A DNA stretch of 46,195 bases from Leptolyngbya sp. Prado105 (GTDB lineage: Bacteria > Cyanobacteriota > Cyanobacteriia > Leptolyngbyales > Leptolyngbyaceae), in the NCBI GenBank assembly GCA_025454375.1, contig JALOOO010000011.1, positions 1 to 46,195 on the forward strand. The letters are read 5' to 3'. A program made the position numbers and the translations under genes. The notes under the pieces were generated by a model, which was given only the letters and a program-made list of their open reading frames with translations, was not told the origin of the DNA and did not search any database. Every line of letters starts with the position of its first letter. Position 1 is the first letter of the stretch. This document shows positions 29,278 to 35,474 of this stretch, piece by piece.

Positions 29278-29846
29278 AGTAACACCCTGACCCCAAACAT
29301 CGAGCCACTCCAATCCGGCAAGAACTATACGAGACTTTATTGTTTTAGAAATCTGAGATCGAGCGGTTGTCAGGGTTATTAGCGCGCGAAAAGGTTGGCA
29401 AATGGATGCAGTCTGCCACTTGACTTTCATTGCTAAGCGCTTTAGAAGAATTGGAAACTTCTGCAAATTCTCATCAGATTCTGAATGCCGTGGGAGGCGC
29501 AATTAGTTGAATGGCTGCTCCATCCTAGTGGACTGTATCGATCGTAGTCATTCAAGCGCAATCTGCGACCTGCCAAACAAATTACACGTCACAAAAATAT
29601 AACAAGTAAAAACCGTAGGCTGAGGTGAAGATGAGATCATGTACCTGCTTGATCGCAACGGTGTTTTTCGATCGCAGAATCTAGGCATCCTCTACAGGAA
29701 ACTGAAAGAGAGTGGTATTGTTTACTCGATCACCTACAGACCCATTTTGGAGGTGAAGCCCCCACGATTTAATCCGCTTAAATTGCAAGATAAGCGCAAA
29801 CTCTTAACGATTTTTTCAGTTGCACGATTTAATCATTTTTTGCAAG
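29278..29846. other. Intergenic region after pstB
   Basis: About 570 bp with no convincing gene. Short open stretches on both strands (for example a 72-codon one at 29639-29857 that overlaps the next gene) show no family pattern. A short piece at about 29435-29508 (ending ALEELETSANSHQILNAVGG) could be the tail of a lost gene, but this is weak. Promoter elements of the pentapeptide gene should lie here. Confidence 0.45.
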
Positions 29847-31880
29847 ATGCCAAGTGATAGATACGGAGTAGACAATTTAGCTCAGGGCGACTCTGAACCA
29901 AAATTTTGCTGTGATTGCTCTCAACGCCCAACGTTCTCCGAACGTGATCTTCAACATCCTGAAGAAAAACAAAGTAACCCTCCCGCTTTTGAAGATTGGT
30001 GCAAAACAGCAGATCTAGCTTACGCCAATCTTGCAGGGGCAAATCTTACAGGTATAAATCTTGCAGGGGCAAATCTTGTCGGCGCAAATCTTTCAGGCAC
30101 AAACTTAAGCGGCGCAAACTTGCGAGGGGCAATTCTGCGAGGGGCAAATCTACAGGGCGCAAACCTACGCAAAGCAATTCTGCCCCGTACTGATCTTGTC
30201 AGAGCGAATTTTAGCAATGCGGATTTAGAAGAGGCTGATCTGGGTGGAGCAAGACTGATCGAAGGTCAGTTATGCGCCGCAAATCTCACCCGCGCCATCC
30301 TACGCAGAATCAACCTCAGCAAAACAGACTTAAGCAATGCCTGTCTGTCGGAAGCAGACTTAACCGGATCAAAACTCTCCGAAGCGCATTTTGCCCAAAC
30401 CAACCTCAGCTACGCCATTCTAGAGCGAGTCGATCTTTGTGGGGCGCAAATGCAAAACACAACCGAGCTATTCAAAGCGGATTTGAAAAATGCAGTCCTA
30501 CGAGGCACGAATCTAAGTCAAGCCAATCTTACAGAAGCGGATCTGACTGGAAGCGATCTCACTGATGCAATTCTCAATGATGCCAAGCTCAATCGAACAA
30601 TTCTCAGCGGAGCTTCCTTAAAATATGCACAGATGGAAGGCGCAGAGTTCAAAGACGCTTCCCTCTATGGGGCAAACCTGACCGGAGCCAATCTGAAGAA
30701 TGCGTCTCTCAAGCGAGCCATCCTACGTCGATCGCTCTTAAGTCAAGCCGATCTCAGCCATGCCAATCTAGAAAAAGCCCAACTCAATTCAGCCGTCATT
30801 CGTCGGGCAAAGCTCGTCTCTGCCAATCTCTCCAAAGCAAAGCTAGACGGAGCCACCTTAAGAAGCTCTGATCTAACCCATGCCAATCTAGAGCAAGCCT
30901 CATTCAGTCGAGCAAATCTATCTTTTGCAAATCTTCGCCATGCTCGTCTGATTCAAACCAATCTTAGAAATGTTGAACTCAATGGAGCCGATCTAACTGA
31001 TGCAGATTTAAGTCAGGCGAAACTCAGCAGTGCACGAGTAATGGCGGCAACCCTAACTCGTGCAGATCTGACCGGAGCAATATTAACTCGTGCTTCATTT
31101 CGAGATTCTGATCTGAGCCATTGCACTTTGATCGGCGCAAATCTTAATCGTGCATACTGTTGTGCCGTGAATCTCACAGCAGCACATCTCTCTTTTGCAG
31201 AAATGAGCGGTGTAAATTTACTCAGATCAAACCTCGATCAGGCAAATGTACAAAATGCAGTTCTCCGTCGAGCCTACATTAGCAATGCGATGCTGTATGA
31301 AACAGATTTGACGCGAGCAGAGCTAACAGGAGCAGATCTATCCAATGTAGACTTCAGTTGCGCGATCGTTCAAGATGCCCGATTTGAGTACAATCTCGGC
31401 TTAACAAATCCCCAGATCGGAGAACTACAAGATGCGTTAGCCATGTGTCTTCCTCAACCGGAGCGCCAAGGACTCAATCAACTCGCCGAGAGTCAGCGAA
31501 GAATGGACGAAGTTCGAGGCGATCTAGAACTAAGGTTCTCCGACTTGGAAGAATCCCTGCGATTATTTCAAGAAGCGATCGAAATTCTCAAAGATGGGTT
31601 AGACGAGCAACATGAAATTGGAAGAACGACCTGTTCCCCAAATTTTGCTCAGTTGCACCTTGCTTTTGAACAAATGGAGCAGCAATTTGCAAGAGACATT
31701 CAAGCTTATCGTGCCTACATCTTCCAATCTTTGGAAGACATGACGGCAAGACAGCAAGATTTGTGGATTCAAGAAGAGTTTCACGCCGTTCTCGATCACA
31801 TTCGAGAACAGATCCTCAAACTCACCCAGCATTCAAAGCTCGTCCATTCCATCTGGTTTACACTAGACGATGCTAGCTAG
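29847..31880 (+). CDS. Long pentapeptide-repeat protein with helical C-terminus
   Basis: A 677-residue protein. The N-terminal 50 residues are polar and include a cysteine cluster (FCCDCSQRP). From about residue 58 to 515 the sequence is an almost unbroken series of A(D/N)LxX pentapeptides (about 90 units), which fold as a right-handed four-sided beta-helix; at four units per coil this is about 22-23 coils, a rod near 11 nm long. The C-terminal 150 residues are helical and acidic, with likely coiled coil (LELRFSDLEESLRLFQEAIE). No signal peptide or membrane helix is present. Pentapeptide proteins act as scaffolds or DNA mimics, but no specific role can be assigned. The ATG at 29847 is chosen; one nine codons earlier is also in frame. 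It stands alone. Confidence 0.9.
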   Translation: MPSDRYGVDNLAQGDSEPKFCCDCSQRPTFSERDLQHPEEKQSNPPAFEDWCKTADLAYANLAGANLTGINLAGANLVGANLSGTNLSGANLRGAILRGANLQGANLRKAILPRTDLVRANFSNADLEEADLGGARLIEGQLCAANLTRAILRRINLSKTDLSNACLSEADLTGSKLSEAHFAQTNLSYAILERVDLCGAQMQNTTELFKADLKNAVLRGTNLSQANLTEADLTGSDLTDAILNDAKLNRTILSGASLKYAQMEGAEFKDASLYGANLTGANLKNASLKRAILRRSLLSQADLSHANLEKAQLNSAVIRRAKLVSANLSKAKLDGATLRSSDLTHANLEQASFSRANLSFANLRHARLIQTNLRNVELNGADLTDADLSQAKLSSARVMAATLTRADLTGAILTRASFRDSDLSHCTLIGANLNRAYCCAVNLTAAHLSFAEMSGVNLLRSNLDQANVQNAVLRRAYISNAMLYETDLTRAELTGADLSNVDFSCAIVQDARFEYNLGLTNPQIGELQDALAMCLPQPERQGLNQLAESQRRMDEVRGDLELRFSDLEESLRLFQEAIEILKDGLDEQHEIGRTTCSPNFAQLHLAFEQMEQQFARDIQAYRAYIFQSLEDMTARQQDLWIQEEFHAVLDHIREQILKLTQHSKLVHSIWFTLDDAS

Positions 31881-32727: not shown

Positions 32728-33267
32728 TCAAACTGATGCAATCAACTGATTTATCATCTCCGGCTTGAGATCTTGAACATAATCTAAAACGATCGACGCG
32801 CCCGCCTGTCTTAGCGTTTCCCGATAAGCATTCTTCCGCTCCTGCGTCTCTTGAACATGCGGCGGTAACACTCCGACTGCAACCCACAATCGCGCTTTCT
32901 CCCTCTCCCTTGCCTGTGCGATCGTATACATATCCGCAACTGTGTCTCCGACATAGATCACCGGACATTCACCACACTCCAACCGCTCCAACGTCAAAAA
33001 CAAGCCCGTCGGATCAGGCTTTCCAGGCGCATCCTCCATCGCAACTAATACAGGATCTATCAAGCCCAGTCGCTTCTCCAAAACATACCGTGCCGATCCC
33101 TGTGTTGCGCCACTAAAAAATCCCCAAACAATACCTGCCTCCGTCAACGACTCCAAATAAGCCGCTTCCAACAACAAAGGCTCACCACAAATATATCCAT
33201 CCCAATTGACAGGATCACTCCCCCGGTAACGCAATTGAAAGAACTGCACGATCGCTATCTCAATCAA
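32728..33267 (-). pseudogene. HAD-type phosphatase, TIGR01548-like, 5'-truncated
   Basis: The reading frame matches the C-terminal two-thirds of a cyanobacterial HAD-superfamily phosphatase: FFQLRYRGSDPVNWDGYIC, VWGFFSGATQGSARYVLEKR, VAMEDAPGKPDPTGLF and VIYVGDTVADMYTIAQA. Motifs II (S/T in FFSGAT), III (K in PGKPDP) and IV (GDTVAD) are present, but the N-terminal motif I with the nucleophile DxD is absent, as homologs begin about 80-90 residues earlier. Homology stops near 33250, where a truncated ABC ATPase begins in the opposite direction. Without the nucleophile it should be inactive as a phosphatase. A start codon exists by chance at 33267. Confidence 0.75.
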
Positions 33268-33624
33268 GATCTTGACGCACTCGCAGTCTCAATGCTTGAA
33301 TCCGTTGGGCTTGGACATCGAGCAGATTACTATCCTGATGGACTCTCTGGGGGTCAAAAACAGCGAGTGGCGATCGCACGAGCATTAATCAGTCATCCAA
33401 AGATTGTGCTAGCAGACGAACCGACTGCTGCATTAGATAAAAAATCGGGTCGAGATGTGGTCGAACTTATGCAGAAACTTGCGAAAGAGCAGCACTGTAC
33501 GATTTTGCTGGTGACGCATGATAATCGAATTTTAGATATTGCCGATCGTATTGTTTATATGGAAGATGGGCGACTTGTAAGTGATGGGAAAAGCTTATCT
33601 TCGACAGTGGAATCACGATCGTAA
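33235..33624 (+). pseudogene. DevA-like ABC transporter ATPase, 5'-truncated
   Basis: The 129-residue frame is the C-terminal half of a DevA/LolD/MacB-type ATPase: signature LSGGQKQRVAIARALI, Walker B IVLADEPTAALDK, switch histidine LLVTHDN and the C-terminal RIVYMEDGRLVSDG. Walker A and the Q-loop are missing, so it cannot bind ATP normally. Homology begins at KELHDRY (about 33238) exactly where the head-to-head HAD gene ends. DevA is usually the last gene of devB-devC-devA glycolipid or export operons; devB and devC are absent here, consistent with one deletion that removed them together with both 5' ends. Confidence 0.75.
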
Positions 33625-33900
33625 ATTTGAAGGTGAACGAGGATTCAGCAAGAAGAACAGACTGTCTAGTCGAAACCGTCGTTGAACAAGATGCAGAAAT
33701 TCTCAGTAAACTCTGCGATGACAGCCCGCAACTTATCAAATTAAATCATGAAATTGGCATGGACTGGGTGTGACGAAACTTTGACACCTTTCCGGAAATT
33801 AAGCGTTTAGATCCTAACGTTTAAAACGGAAATCAATCAATTAATTTTGCAGGATTCCCGGATTGATCCCCGAACTTTCAGCCCAAAGTCTAGGATCTGA
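33625..33900. other. Spacer after the DevA remnant, possibly with a gene fragment
   Basis: A plus-strand open stretch ending at the TGA 33771-33773 reads DCLVETVVEQDAEILSKLC and IKLNHEIGMDWV. It looks protein-like, but no family is recognised and no start codon is seen; it may be part of another decayed gene. Confidence 0.35.
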
Positions 33901-33934
33901 AAATCTTTACAAAACTTTACGATTGACAGAGTTT

Positions 33935-34105
33935 TCCCAAAGCTCTCCACAGGCATTCCACAGTTTTTCAGAGCTTTATCCACACCTTTTCCACATCAAA
34001 TTGAAAGTTTTCCACAGAGGATCGAGCTAAAATCAGCATTTCTCGGCAAGCTGTGGATAAGTCGTTGCCTCCGACGATCGCAGCTTAAAAAACGCTGATT
34101 TTGTG
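33935..34105. other. Cluster of DnaA boxes, candidate replication origin (oriC)
   Basis: Five to six DnaA-box-like 9-mers lie within 120 bp: CTCTCCACA (33943-33951), CATTCCACA (33954-33962), the perfect consensus TTATCCACA (33976-33984), TTTTCCACA (33987-33995), TTTTCCACA (34008-34016), and TTATCCACA on the minus strand (34052-34060). A further weaker one, ATTTCCACA, lies at 34264-34272. The TTTTCCACA form is typical of cyanobacterial origins. The last strong box sits inside a 9-bp inverted repeat (AAAATCAGC 34029-34037 and GCTGATTTT 34094-34102), and AT-rich tracts flank the cluster. The region is non-coding. dnaA and dnaN are not adjacent in the window. The origin call is inference from box density. 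Confidence 0.65.
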
Positions 34106-34121
34106 AAGCAATGTAACGAAA

Positions 34122-34160
34122 AATCGGCTGAAATACCGATTATGCCGTTAGGTATTTTTG
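34122..34160 (+). other. Two mutually exclusive hairpins, one terminator-like
   Basis: AATCGG (34122-34127) can pair with CCGATT (34136-34141), or AAATACC (34131-34137) can pair with GGTATTT (34151-34157), which runs into T-rich sequence. The two share CC at 34136-34137, so they exclude each other. This could be an attenuator before the DUF2811 gene, part of origin structure, or chance. Confidence 0.35.
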
Positions 34161-34400
34161 ATCTAATCGCTAGAGTTTACTTTTCTTGATGTTGATCTTC
34201 TGGCGATGATCGCGCAGAATGTAGCGACTAACCGAACATCGTTTAGCCGACCTGAACCGCGCGATTTCCACAACACATATCTGGATGGGAAATCAGAGCA
34301 AGGGATCGGACTAGCGTAAATTTCTGCTGCAAAAAAACAGTCAGAACATCGGATAGCTTCAAAGATACTCTCGCGATTTCACCTCTGAGGTTTGAATAAT

Positions 34401-34625
34401 ATGGATAGCAACATTAGCCTGTTCGTCGAAATTCCTGAAGCTCTGCATCAATCGTTTCAAACCTTTCTGGATACCCGCCCAGACTGGGATCAAGACCGAG
34501 TGATGTCTGCTGCTTTGTCATTGTTCTTGCTGCAAAATCGCCCTGCAAATGAGCGTCAGAACGATCGTCAAACTGCACGGATCTATCTAGACTCGATTTT
34601 TAAGCGTCCGGTCGAGCAGATCTAG
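34401..34625 (+). CDS. DUF2811-type small protein
   Basis: A 74-residue protein with the pattern I recall for the cyanobacterial DUF2811 family: ISLFVEIPEALHQSFQTFLD, then RPDWDQDRVMSAALSLFLLQ, ending in a basic ARIYLDSIF segment. Its function is unknown. The layout (a strand, two helices) is reminiscent of small ribbon-helix-helix regulators, but this is not established. The ATG at 34401 with GAGG about 10 nt upstream is preferred over a TTG at 34392. It follows the candidate origin and precedes the RecB-family nuclease on the same strand (51-bp gap), so the two may be co-transcribed. Confidence 0.75.
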   Translation: MDSNISLFVEIPEALHQSFQTFLDTRPDWDQDRVMSAALSLFLLQNRPANERQNDRQTARIYLDSIFKRPVEQI

Positions 34626-34676
34626 TTCGATCGTCTAGGTTCGTTTTTTCAGTCTTTAACCTTGTTTGCCTTAGCC

Positions 34677-35474
34677 ATGCCTTATCAGATTTCTGCCACA
34701 AAACTCCAGGCATATAGTCGCTGCCCTTATGCGTACTATCTGCGGTACGAGCGACGACTGACGAGTAACGATTTCTTTGGTTCAGCCGCATTAGGAACAG
34801 CTTTGCACCAAGCTTTAGCAATGGTTCATCGGGATTGGCACTACCACGATTCGATTCCCGATCGAGCATGGGTGTTACGCTGTTGGGATGAAGCCTCAGA
34901 GAGTTTAACCACCAATCAGTTTGAAGACGGTCGCTCAATTTTGGAAAACTACTATGAGACATTCATCCAAAATGAGCAGCATTCGTTGCGTAAACCGTTA
35001 GCGGTTGAAGGACGAATTCAAGCTTTTCTGCAAGTGGAAAGCCTCGAATTCTGTATTACGGGACGCTACGATCGTATTGACTATCTCGATGATGGGTTGG
35101 AGCTAATCGATTACAAGTCGAGTCGGGAGTTAAAAGTGCCAGAATCCGATGAGATGGATTTGCAGATCGGATTGTATTACCTGGCATTGGAGCAGACTTA
35201 CCACCAAAGTCTGAAATATCTAAGCTTGCTCTTTCTAAGAACGGCTGAGAAGGTTCGCTTCAAAGCAACTGATCGCCATAAAAAGCAAGTGCAAGCTGTG
35301 ATTTCAGATTTAGCAATGCGCCTGCGTCAAGATGAGACGTGGGAGCCAACACCGGGCAAACAATGCGATCGCTGTGCATATTCTCGCTACTGTTCAGCAG
35401 TAAATCTTGAACCCGCTCCTTTGCCTAGTACTGCAAGTGCATCTCCTGAATTGCAGCTTGCATTAGGTCTGTAG
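34677..35474 (+). CDS. RecB-family PD-(D/E)XK exonuclease with Fe-S cysteines
   Basis: A 265-residue nuclease of the Cas4/AddB/RecB-like type. The N-terminal ISATKLQAYSRCPYAYYLRY carries the first cysteine. The catalytic core is G-R-Y-D-R-I-D (aspartate) followed by LELIDYKSSRE (motif D-Y-K), and QIGLYYLALEQ follows as the usual QxxxY element. A C-terminal trio, CDRCAYSRYC, plus the N-terminal cysteine would bind a 4Fe-4S cluster, as in AddB and Cas4. There is no helicase domain, and no cas genes are present, so a DNA repair or end-processing role is more likely than CRISPR adaptation. The ATG at 34677 gives the standard start. Confidence 0.88.
   Translation: MPYQISATKLQAYSRCPYAYYLRYERRLTSNDFFGSAALGTALHQALAMVHRDWHYHDSIPDRAWVLRCWDEASESLTTNQFEDGRSILENYYETFIQNEQHSLRKPLAVEGRIQAFLQVESLEFCITGRYDRIDYLDDGLELIDYKSSRELKVPESDEMDLQIGLYYLALEQTYHQSLKYLSLLFLRTAEKVRFKATDRHKKQVQAVISDLAMRLRQDETWEPTPGKQCDRCAYSRYCSAVNLEPAPLPSTASASPELQLALGL

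Follow-up and report, generated by a model that had tools for sequence, protein, structure and literature searches.

The closest precedent for DnaA-box clusters outside a replication origin is found in Bacillus subtilis, where a few high-affinity DnaA-binding clusters have been described outside oriC, at sda/yqeG, ywlC, ywcI, vpr and other loci. According to two accounts, these clusters lie mostly upstream of genes and one of them controls the small regulatory protein Sda (PMC8203912, PMC4447404). In Escherichia coli, the non-oriC chromosomal regions datA, DARS1 and DARS2 act on DnaA itself; they are described as non-coding control regions that keep a conserved relative distance to oriC. DnaA boxes are present in datA, DARS1 and DARS2. 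In cyanobacteria, gel-shift and footprint evidence identifies TTTTCCACA as the DnaA box of oriCs (PMC4674748), and the origin, which carries TTTTCCACA boxes, is reported to adjoin dnaN usually, though not always (PMC4674748, PMC6323995, PMC5987646); predicted cyanobacterial oriCs away from both dnaN and dnaA are in print (PMC6323995, PMC5987646). Multiple losses of dnaA have been reported in this phylum, and Ohbayashi and colleagues describe the function of DnaA as unclear in those cyanobacteria which keep dnaA yet replicate without DnaA (PMC7198777).

The locus described here is a tandem array of DnaA boxes upstream of a small cyanobacterial gene encoding a DUF2811 protein. Unlike the B. subtilis clusters, it is carried by one gene family across a bacterial class, it is quantised in 21-bp steps and placed at a fixed distance from a promoter-like block, and its gene is mostly lost together with dnaA. 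Like datA, DARS1 and DARS2 it is probably a non-oriC chromosomal region, but it is tied to a gene, and its varying distance to dnaN departs from their conserved position. With the cyanobacterial oriC beside dnaN or dnaA the array shares the same 9-mer (PMC4674748) and the tandem arrangement seen at the dnaN of its own genome, whereas it has neither gene as a neighbour, fewer exact boxes and no AT-rich 3′ stretch. No report of the array was found in the papers available without subscription on cyanobacterial DnaA and its boxes, on datA/DARS and on the Synechocystis DnaA regulon.

The window, i.e., the whole stretch of DNA that was analysed, is a complete contig (C330, 46,195 bp) of a cyanobacterial draft genome of 383 contigs and 5.69 Mb. 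Scanning it with the DnaA-box consensus TTWTCCACA, on the choice of which all exact-box counts depend, revealed five exact sites, four of which lie within 85 bp (Table 1). Together with the degenerate sites at 33943 and 33954 they occupy 118 bp (33943–34060) without an annotated gene, and the scan thereby recovered the dense non-coding cluster of four exact and two near-match boxes that the preliminary description had reported. Its density is far above chance, as had been claimed: the maximum number of exact boxes per 120 bp was at most one in 299 of 300 first-order Markov simulations and two in the remaining one, as compared to four in the window. One-mismatch sites, on the other hand, are not enriched across the window (26 vs. 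20.8 expected, with at least 26 in 15 of 100 shuffles), and the signal therefore resides in the exact, clustered boxes. The whole genome contains 93 exact sites as opposed to 44 for the reversed pattern.

Table 1. Features of the box array and its surroundings, in window coordinates.
Feature	Position	Strand	Sequence	Remarks
AT-rich left-end element	33902–33920	+	AATCTTTACAAAACTTTAC	Other families often have TTTTTGCAATTCTTATC at the same place
Co-oriented DnaA-box array, 11/21-bp phase	33932–34016	+		Degenerate boxes at 33932, 33943, 33954; exact boxes at 33976, 33987, 34008
Degenerate site, two mismatches	33943		CTCTCCACA	
Degenerate site, two mismatches	33954		CATTCCACA	
Exact box	33976	+	TTATCCACA	TTWTCCACA scan
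Exact box	33987	+	TTTTCCACA	TTWTCCACA scan
Exact box	34008	+	TTTTCCACA	TTWTCCACA scan
Exact opposed DnaA box	34052–34060	−	TTATCCACA	TTWTCCACA scan, genus alignment, 35-sequence consensus
Promoter-like block	34192–34220	+	TTGATC-17-CAGAAT	175 nt past the last + box
Single one-mismatch box, presumed leader	34264–34272	+	ATTTCCACA	Identical in 7/7 genus sequences
DUF2811 gene (PF10929), 74 aa	34401–34625	+		ATG at 34401; 85.9 bits vs. curated cut-off of 26.6
PDDEXK (RecB-type) nuclease gene	34677–35474	+		Profile match

The box positions of the array are fixed in the genus alignment, and the place of the opposed box is occupied by a degenerate CTGGGGATT in the consensus of 35 sequences. Around the last box, a 9-bp inverted repeat had been described; a repeat search with a minimum length of 7 reported no exact repeat of this size, and the nearest equivalent is a 13-nt inverted pair (92%) on both sides of the box (34029–34041/34090–34102). 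A further 13-nt inverted pair (92%) joins the box at 33976 with the reverse box (34048–34060). Of the AT-rich flanks noted earlier, the 5′ one holds (63% AT in 33880–33931) and the 3′ one does not, with 48% AT in the 60 bp following the last + box.

Profile matches confirmed the neighbours named in the preliminary description, DUF2811 and a RecB-family nuclease. The opposite side of the cluster, which had been taken for a deletion scar, carries partial HAD-hydrolase and ABC-ATPase frames that overlap head to head (32728–33624). This side is not common to the genus members compared, where similarity to the window begins at about 33674 in one genome (G001) and at points from about 33851 to 33902 in the other five, and the partial frames likely reflect a lineage-specific rearrangement or an assembly join. 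An RNA gene between the array and DUF2811 was not found, either as an Rfam match at the gathering threshold in the window or up to an E-value of 5 in 33850–34450. A plasmid-borne origin was also considered and discarded, as 33601–34700 has no match in the plasmid collection. Further upstream, the window contains a 686-aa open frame starting from TTG (29820–31880), which by eye consists largely of pentapeptide-type repeats.

The array accompanies DUF2811 across the class, which was surveyed as a sample. The best 80 of 477 DUF2811 relatives were analysed for this purpose, of which one (L159) was dropped due to too little upstream DNA. Among the 79 remaining loci, 77 carry one or more exact boxes in the 900 bp upstream of the gene and 58 carry two or more; a box cluster that stays upstream of its gene through rearrangement is characteristic of a DnaA-regulated promoter, and boxes are kept in 77 of 79 loci of this set, whose downstream genes vary. 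Box density in the same 79 loci amounts to 2.36 per kb within the 900 bp upstream vs. 0.039 further upstream and 0.026 downstream, an enrichment of 60–90 fold over the flanks, while the reversed motif gave 4, 3, and 2 sites in these three zones. The boxes are predominantly co-oriented with the gene (155 on the same and 13 on the opposite strand), and neighbouring forward boxes are separated by 21–22 bp in 56 of 78 cases. The two exceptions have one-mismatch sites only (L129) or none (L160). Exact upstream boxes were likewise identified in further sets of loci (30/30, 14/20, and 18/20, the last of these being new loci), the eight misses being three dnaA-less genomes (G052, G147, G151), four genomes of genus g7 and one of the three copies of G112. 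The link to a small cyanobacterial gene that had been suggested from the window alone is thus substantiated by box linkage across the class. Downstream genes vary among the best 80 of 477 relatives, with the nuclease in 21/80 and a gene presumably related to HemJ in 19/80, and the array therefore follows DUF2811 rather than a place. For the same reason, a DUF2811-nuclease operon was rejected as a functional unit, of which the nuclease gene is probably not a part.

The geometry of the upstream region is equally constrained. In an alignment of 35 upstream regions, the left element TTTTTGCAATTCTTATC (AATCTTTACAAAACTTTAC in the window) is followed by the array and the opposed degenerate box, then by a stretch resembling TTTTGTAAAGTTATGTAACAAAAA, by GATTCTTTCGT and finally by the promoter-like block CATTGACA…GCGCACAATGA. 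The left element is invariant at 18 of 19 positions in 7/7 genus sequences and was also recovered in the consensus and by k-mer enrichment. Within the set of 79 loci (best 80 of 477), the gap between the last exact box and TTGACA could not be measured in 12; it is 171–175 bp in 47 of the 67 measurable loci and 194–197 bp in nine more, one 21-bp period further, and the second paralogue of the genus shows 166–167 bp in 6/6 cases. CATTGACA-18/19-CACAAT occupies the promoter-like place in 36 of these 79 loci. Conversely, the distance from TTGACA to the gene is variable, with an interquartile range of 140–240 bp. The left element's motif TTCTTAY is found in the 200 bp preceding the last + box in 53 of the 79 loci (best 80 of 477) and absent there in 26; in 50 of the 53, its distance to this box is 62–63, 83–85 or 104–106 bp, so that the length of the array corresponds to three, four or five periods of 21 bp. 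From TTGACA, the left element is mostly placed near 246, 267 or 288 bp, i.e., in whole 21-bp steps.

The fixed distance of the TTGACA block may point to a promoter, even though a generic scan called no sigma-70 promoter in 33600–34700 of the window. Here TTGACA is missing, and TTGATC stands at 34192 instead, followed after 17 nt by CAGAAT; the nearest relatives of the window locus (L103–L109) likewise lack TTGACA at this place. The promoter-like block of the window sits inside an almost invariant block in 7/7 genus sequences.

Within the genus, tandem boxes of this kind are restricted to few places per genome. A pattern of two co-oriented exact boxes 1–31 bp apart, run on eight genomes of the genus, retrieved 50 pairs in 32 clusters, as opposed to none for the reversed pattern. 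Judged by distance to known genes, 8 of these clusters lie at dnaN, 13 at DUF2811 and 11 elsewhere. The latter comprise one triplet in each of the eight genomes, two decayed second DUF2811 copies and one DUF2811-1 array cut by a contig end, so that the four loci common to the genus are dnaN, DUF2811-1 (the window locus), DUF2811-2 and the triplet. The scan for further clusters in the window genome, which had been suggested as a check on the origin proposal, thus ended with four tandem-box clusters, of which two precede DUF2811 paralogues. The array is present at both main paralogues of the genus. DUF2811-2 of the window genome (G000:C167:10219–10845; L010, L028) has its own array and lies upstream of the HemJ-like gene; in G004 and G005 it has decayed to its C-terminal half beside this gene, with boxes still present. 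Two extra DUF2811 copies in G001 are without an exact box.

The triplet lies at the same ORF in 8/8 genomes, presumably a DUF3122-like one, with guaA or a cation-efflux gene nearby. With a box spacing of 20–22 bp, it is represented in the window genome by L011 (G000:C63:2938–2988) and recurs at L063–L079 and L284–L286. Outside the genus, the pair pattern has matches in 48 of 52 genomes, compared to four matches overall for the reversed pattern. Among the matches listed (83 clusters in 47 genomes), 29 clusters are located within 2.5 kb of dnaN or dnaA, 23 at DUF2811 and 31 elsewhere; of the 47 class genomes among these matches, no more than 23 have DUF2811 marked by an exact pair. Thirteen of the 31 elsewhere-clusters listed are genus-like triplets (G038, G046, G060, G015, G081, G056, G042, G097, G078, G021, G114, G018, and G034), the remainder being mostly single pairs. 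Nine of the 13 share at least one neighbour with the genus locus (guaA, cation efflux or the small ORF) and four do not. Since it lies between convergent genes in G038 and G046, the triplet may serve to titrate or reactivate DnaA; no paper linking DnaA with guaA was found in the literature searched. Exact copies of five words of the array module are absent at the dnaN cluster, and only scattered short matches occur at the triplet loci.

Array and gene mostly occur where dnaA is present. In a first draw of genomes outside the genus, dnaA was found in 47 of the 48 DUF2811-bearing genomes, and all four class genomes without DUF2811 (G050, G054, G107, G117) are also without dnaA; three of these four keep dnaN, with no dnaN match in G050. 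Another set, drawn around G107 and comprising 60 genomes, 19 of them common to the first draw, contained both genes in 36 genomes, neither in 19, dnaA alone in two (G144 and G152, the latter 61% complete) and DUF2811 alone in three (G052, G147, and G151, the last 75% complete), and is thus concordant in 55 of 60. Fifteen of the 19 double-absent genomes belong to one family and further ones to families f32, f37, f42, and f47; G160, which has both genes, is of the same genus as G143 (f37). Fisher’s test returned 1.4e-10 for the 60 genomes with shared ancestry ignored and 5.9e-4 with one row per family, where genomes below 90% completeness were excluded, the broken dnaA of G144 was scored as present and two mixed families, f12 and f37, were divided manually; loss counts follow family labels rather than a tree. 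The only dnaA match of G144 (C97:4576–4674), a genome without DUF2811, covers 33 profile positions with a stop inside and looks like a dnaA in decay.

Exact boxes are present upstream of DUF2811 in 0/3 dnaA-less genomes vs. 19/19 dnaA-bearing ones in the same test. The three dnaA-less loci have degraded to different degrees: in G052 the boxes are gone while the left element and the CATTGACA block are still present, G147 has a degenerate array and no TTGACA, and in G151 nothing more than two isolated one-mismatch sites is left of the array. This absence is the strongest indication from sequence that DnaA reads the boxes. Maintenance of boxes only where DnaA exists is thus observed, yet four dnaA-bearing genomes of genus g7 (L087, L091, L095, L096) have one-mismatch boxes only, and the presence of dnaA therefore does not guarantee an exact array. 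The left element and TTGACA are kept in the g7 loci inspected (L087, L091), and DnaA is perhaps changed or unused in this genus.

These observations bear on what the array is. In the preliminary description it was proposed to be a chromosome replication origin, in agreement with its dense boxes, their tandem, oriC-like spacing and the AT-rich 5′ flank; DoriC moreover notes one species with a TTTTCCACA-box oriC far from dnaA and dnaN (PMC6323995). The proposal is not supported: a denser cluster near dnaN or dnaA, which the preliminary description itself had named as refuting, exists in the same genome, where seven exact TTTTCCACA boxes in 327 bp (C258:16904–17230), six of them within 161 bp, lie directly upstream of dnaN and represent the densest cluster of the genome, compared to four exact boxes in the array. 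The array adjoins neither dnaN (on C258) nor dnaA (on C109). It also lacks an AT-rich unwinding stretch beside the boxes, since the 60 bp past the last forward box are 77% AT at dnaN vs. 48% in the window and 33–58% in eight relatives, and the 5′ side reaches 63%. The four tandem-box clusters per genome in the genus argue against an origin as well, as does the position of the DUF2811-1 array, which lies about 2.8, 1.9, and 1.2 Mb from dnaN in G001, G002, and G003, respectively, if C1 is circular. GC skew was set aside as an origin locator in the near-complete congeners G002 and G003, where it is irregular (20 stretches of 20 kb each), as is reported for most cyanobacteria (PMC7198777); the distant G112, in which sampling at 20 places gave a V-shaped skew, has its minimum at the dnaN end, away from its three DUF2811 copies at 0.73, 1.36, and 1.44 Mb. 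The array is thus probably not the chromosome origin, a role to which the smallest chance of all is assigned here. A secondary or conditional origin, acting beside or instead of the one at dnaN, would likewise account for the oriC-like tandem boxes, and several cyanobacteria are reported to initiate at multiple sites (PMC7198777). However, the multiple origins described in that report are DnaA-independent, whereas the three dnaA-less DUF2811 genomes have lost the array or retain it in degenerate form; together with the missing AT-rich stretch 3′ of the boxes, this renders such an origin highly improbable.

An element of the datA/DARS type, which titrates, inactivates or reactivates DnaA and merely happens to lie before DUF2811, with the promoter-like block as an architectural part, would fit the whole-period steps between the left element and TTGACA. 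It would also fit the triplet counterparts in G038 and G046, which are situated between convergent guaA and cation-efflux genes and are therefore not promoters. Such an element is nonetheless unlikely, because the array stays with DUF2811 despite changes of neighbours and at widely varying distances to dnaN, and because a bystander gene is not expected to be mostly co-lost with dnaA. Finally, TTTTCCACA could be the site of another regulator which resembles the DnaA box, a view to which the extra conserved motifs flanking the array and the four dnaA-bearing genomes without an exact box lend themselves. The identical 9-mer makes up the dnaN cluster of the same genome, though, and the exact boxes are missing in 3/3 dnaA-less DUF2811 genomes, leaving this view with a chance that is slimmer still than that of a secondary origin.

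The preferred reading, with a probability of roughly three in four, is that the site represents a DnaA-binding cis-regulatory array belonging to the DUF2811 gene, and not a chromosome origin. In this view, DnaA would line up on co-oriented boxes that follow each other at one or two helical turns and lie a constant ~174 bp upstream of the putative DUF2811 promoter. It would thereby couple transcription of the gene, whether by raising or lowering it, to DnaA level or nucleotide state; the DUF2811 protein would in turn act back in the DnaA pathway. Since the gene is mostly lost together with dnaA, its product most likely works in this pathway, for example as a feedback regulator of DnaA or as an effector of the replication state. 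Against control of a promoter stands the spacing, as sites of classical bacterial activators or repressors tend to lie closer than 174 bp, and binding of DnaA near a promoter does not account for the left element or for the conserved sequence that separates the array from the promoter-like block. Furthermore, dnaA is reported to be deletable in three cyanobacteria without an effect on growth under optimal conditions (PMC7198777), and DnaA control of DUF2811 would therefore be dispensable in these three. A more far-reaching proposal is put forward tentatively, at less than even odds: an ancient, dedicated cyanobacterial DnaA-DUF2811 circuit, in which DnaA, forming filaments on the helically phased boxes, would govern the expression of DUF2811. 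The latter would be a DnaA-pathway protein of a new class, be it a partner, an inhibitor or an effector, and this circuit rather than initiation would keep dnaA in those cyanobacteria where DnaA is no longer needed to replicate.

The DUF2811 protein itself matched only DUF2811 or chance-level entries in Pfam, NCBIfam, PHROGs and the PDB sequences, and the term was not found in the papers available without subscription that were searched. A ribbon-helix-helix fold, guessed from the sequence pattern, found no support from hhalign, AlphaFold and Foldseek: comparison with 14 RHH_1 stretches of the genus by hhalign gave a probability of 3.5%, the AlphaFold models (pLDDT 53–56) are too poor for a judgement of fold, and Foldseek, run with one of these low-pLDDT models, says little in having no match at E ≤ 0.001. 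The array provides a first functional lead for DUF2811, and it names this gene, one of only four tandem-box loci in the genus, as a specific candidate target of DnaA, with an array that is conserved across the class and mostly missing, along with the gene, from genomes without dnaA. Origin finders that rely on boxes could, as the array further suggests, take DUF2811 clusters for oriC if these lie away from dnaN and dnaA.

Two additional loci were noted in the course of the survey. Besides dnaA, the window genome contains a second, weaker Bac_DnaA match (G000:C18:8296–8658, 35.9 bits). In a dnaA-less genome, a contig of 26.7 kb harbours 21-bp tandem repeats containing TTTTCCACA (L080, G107:C2:14150–22150), which are possibly plasmid iterons.
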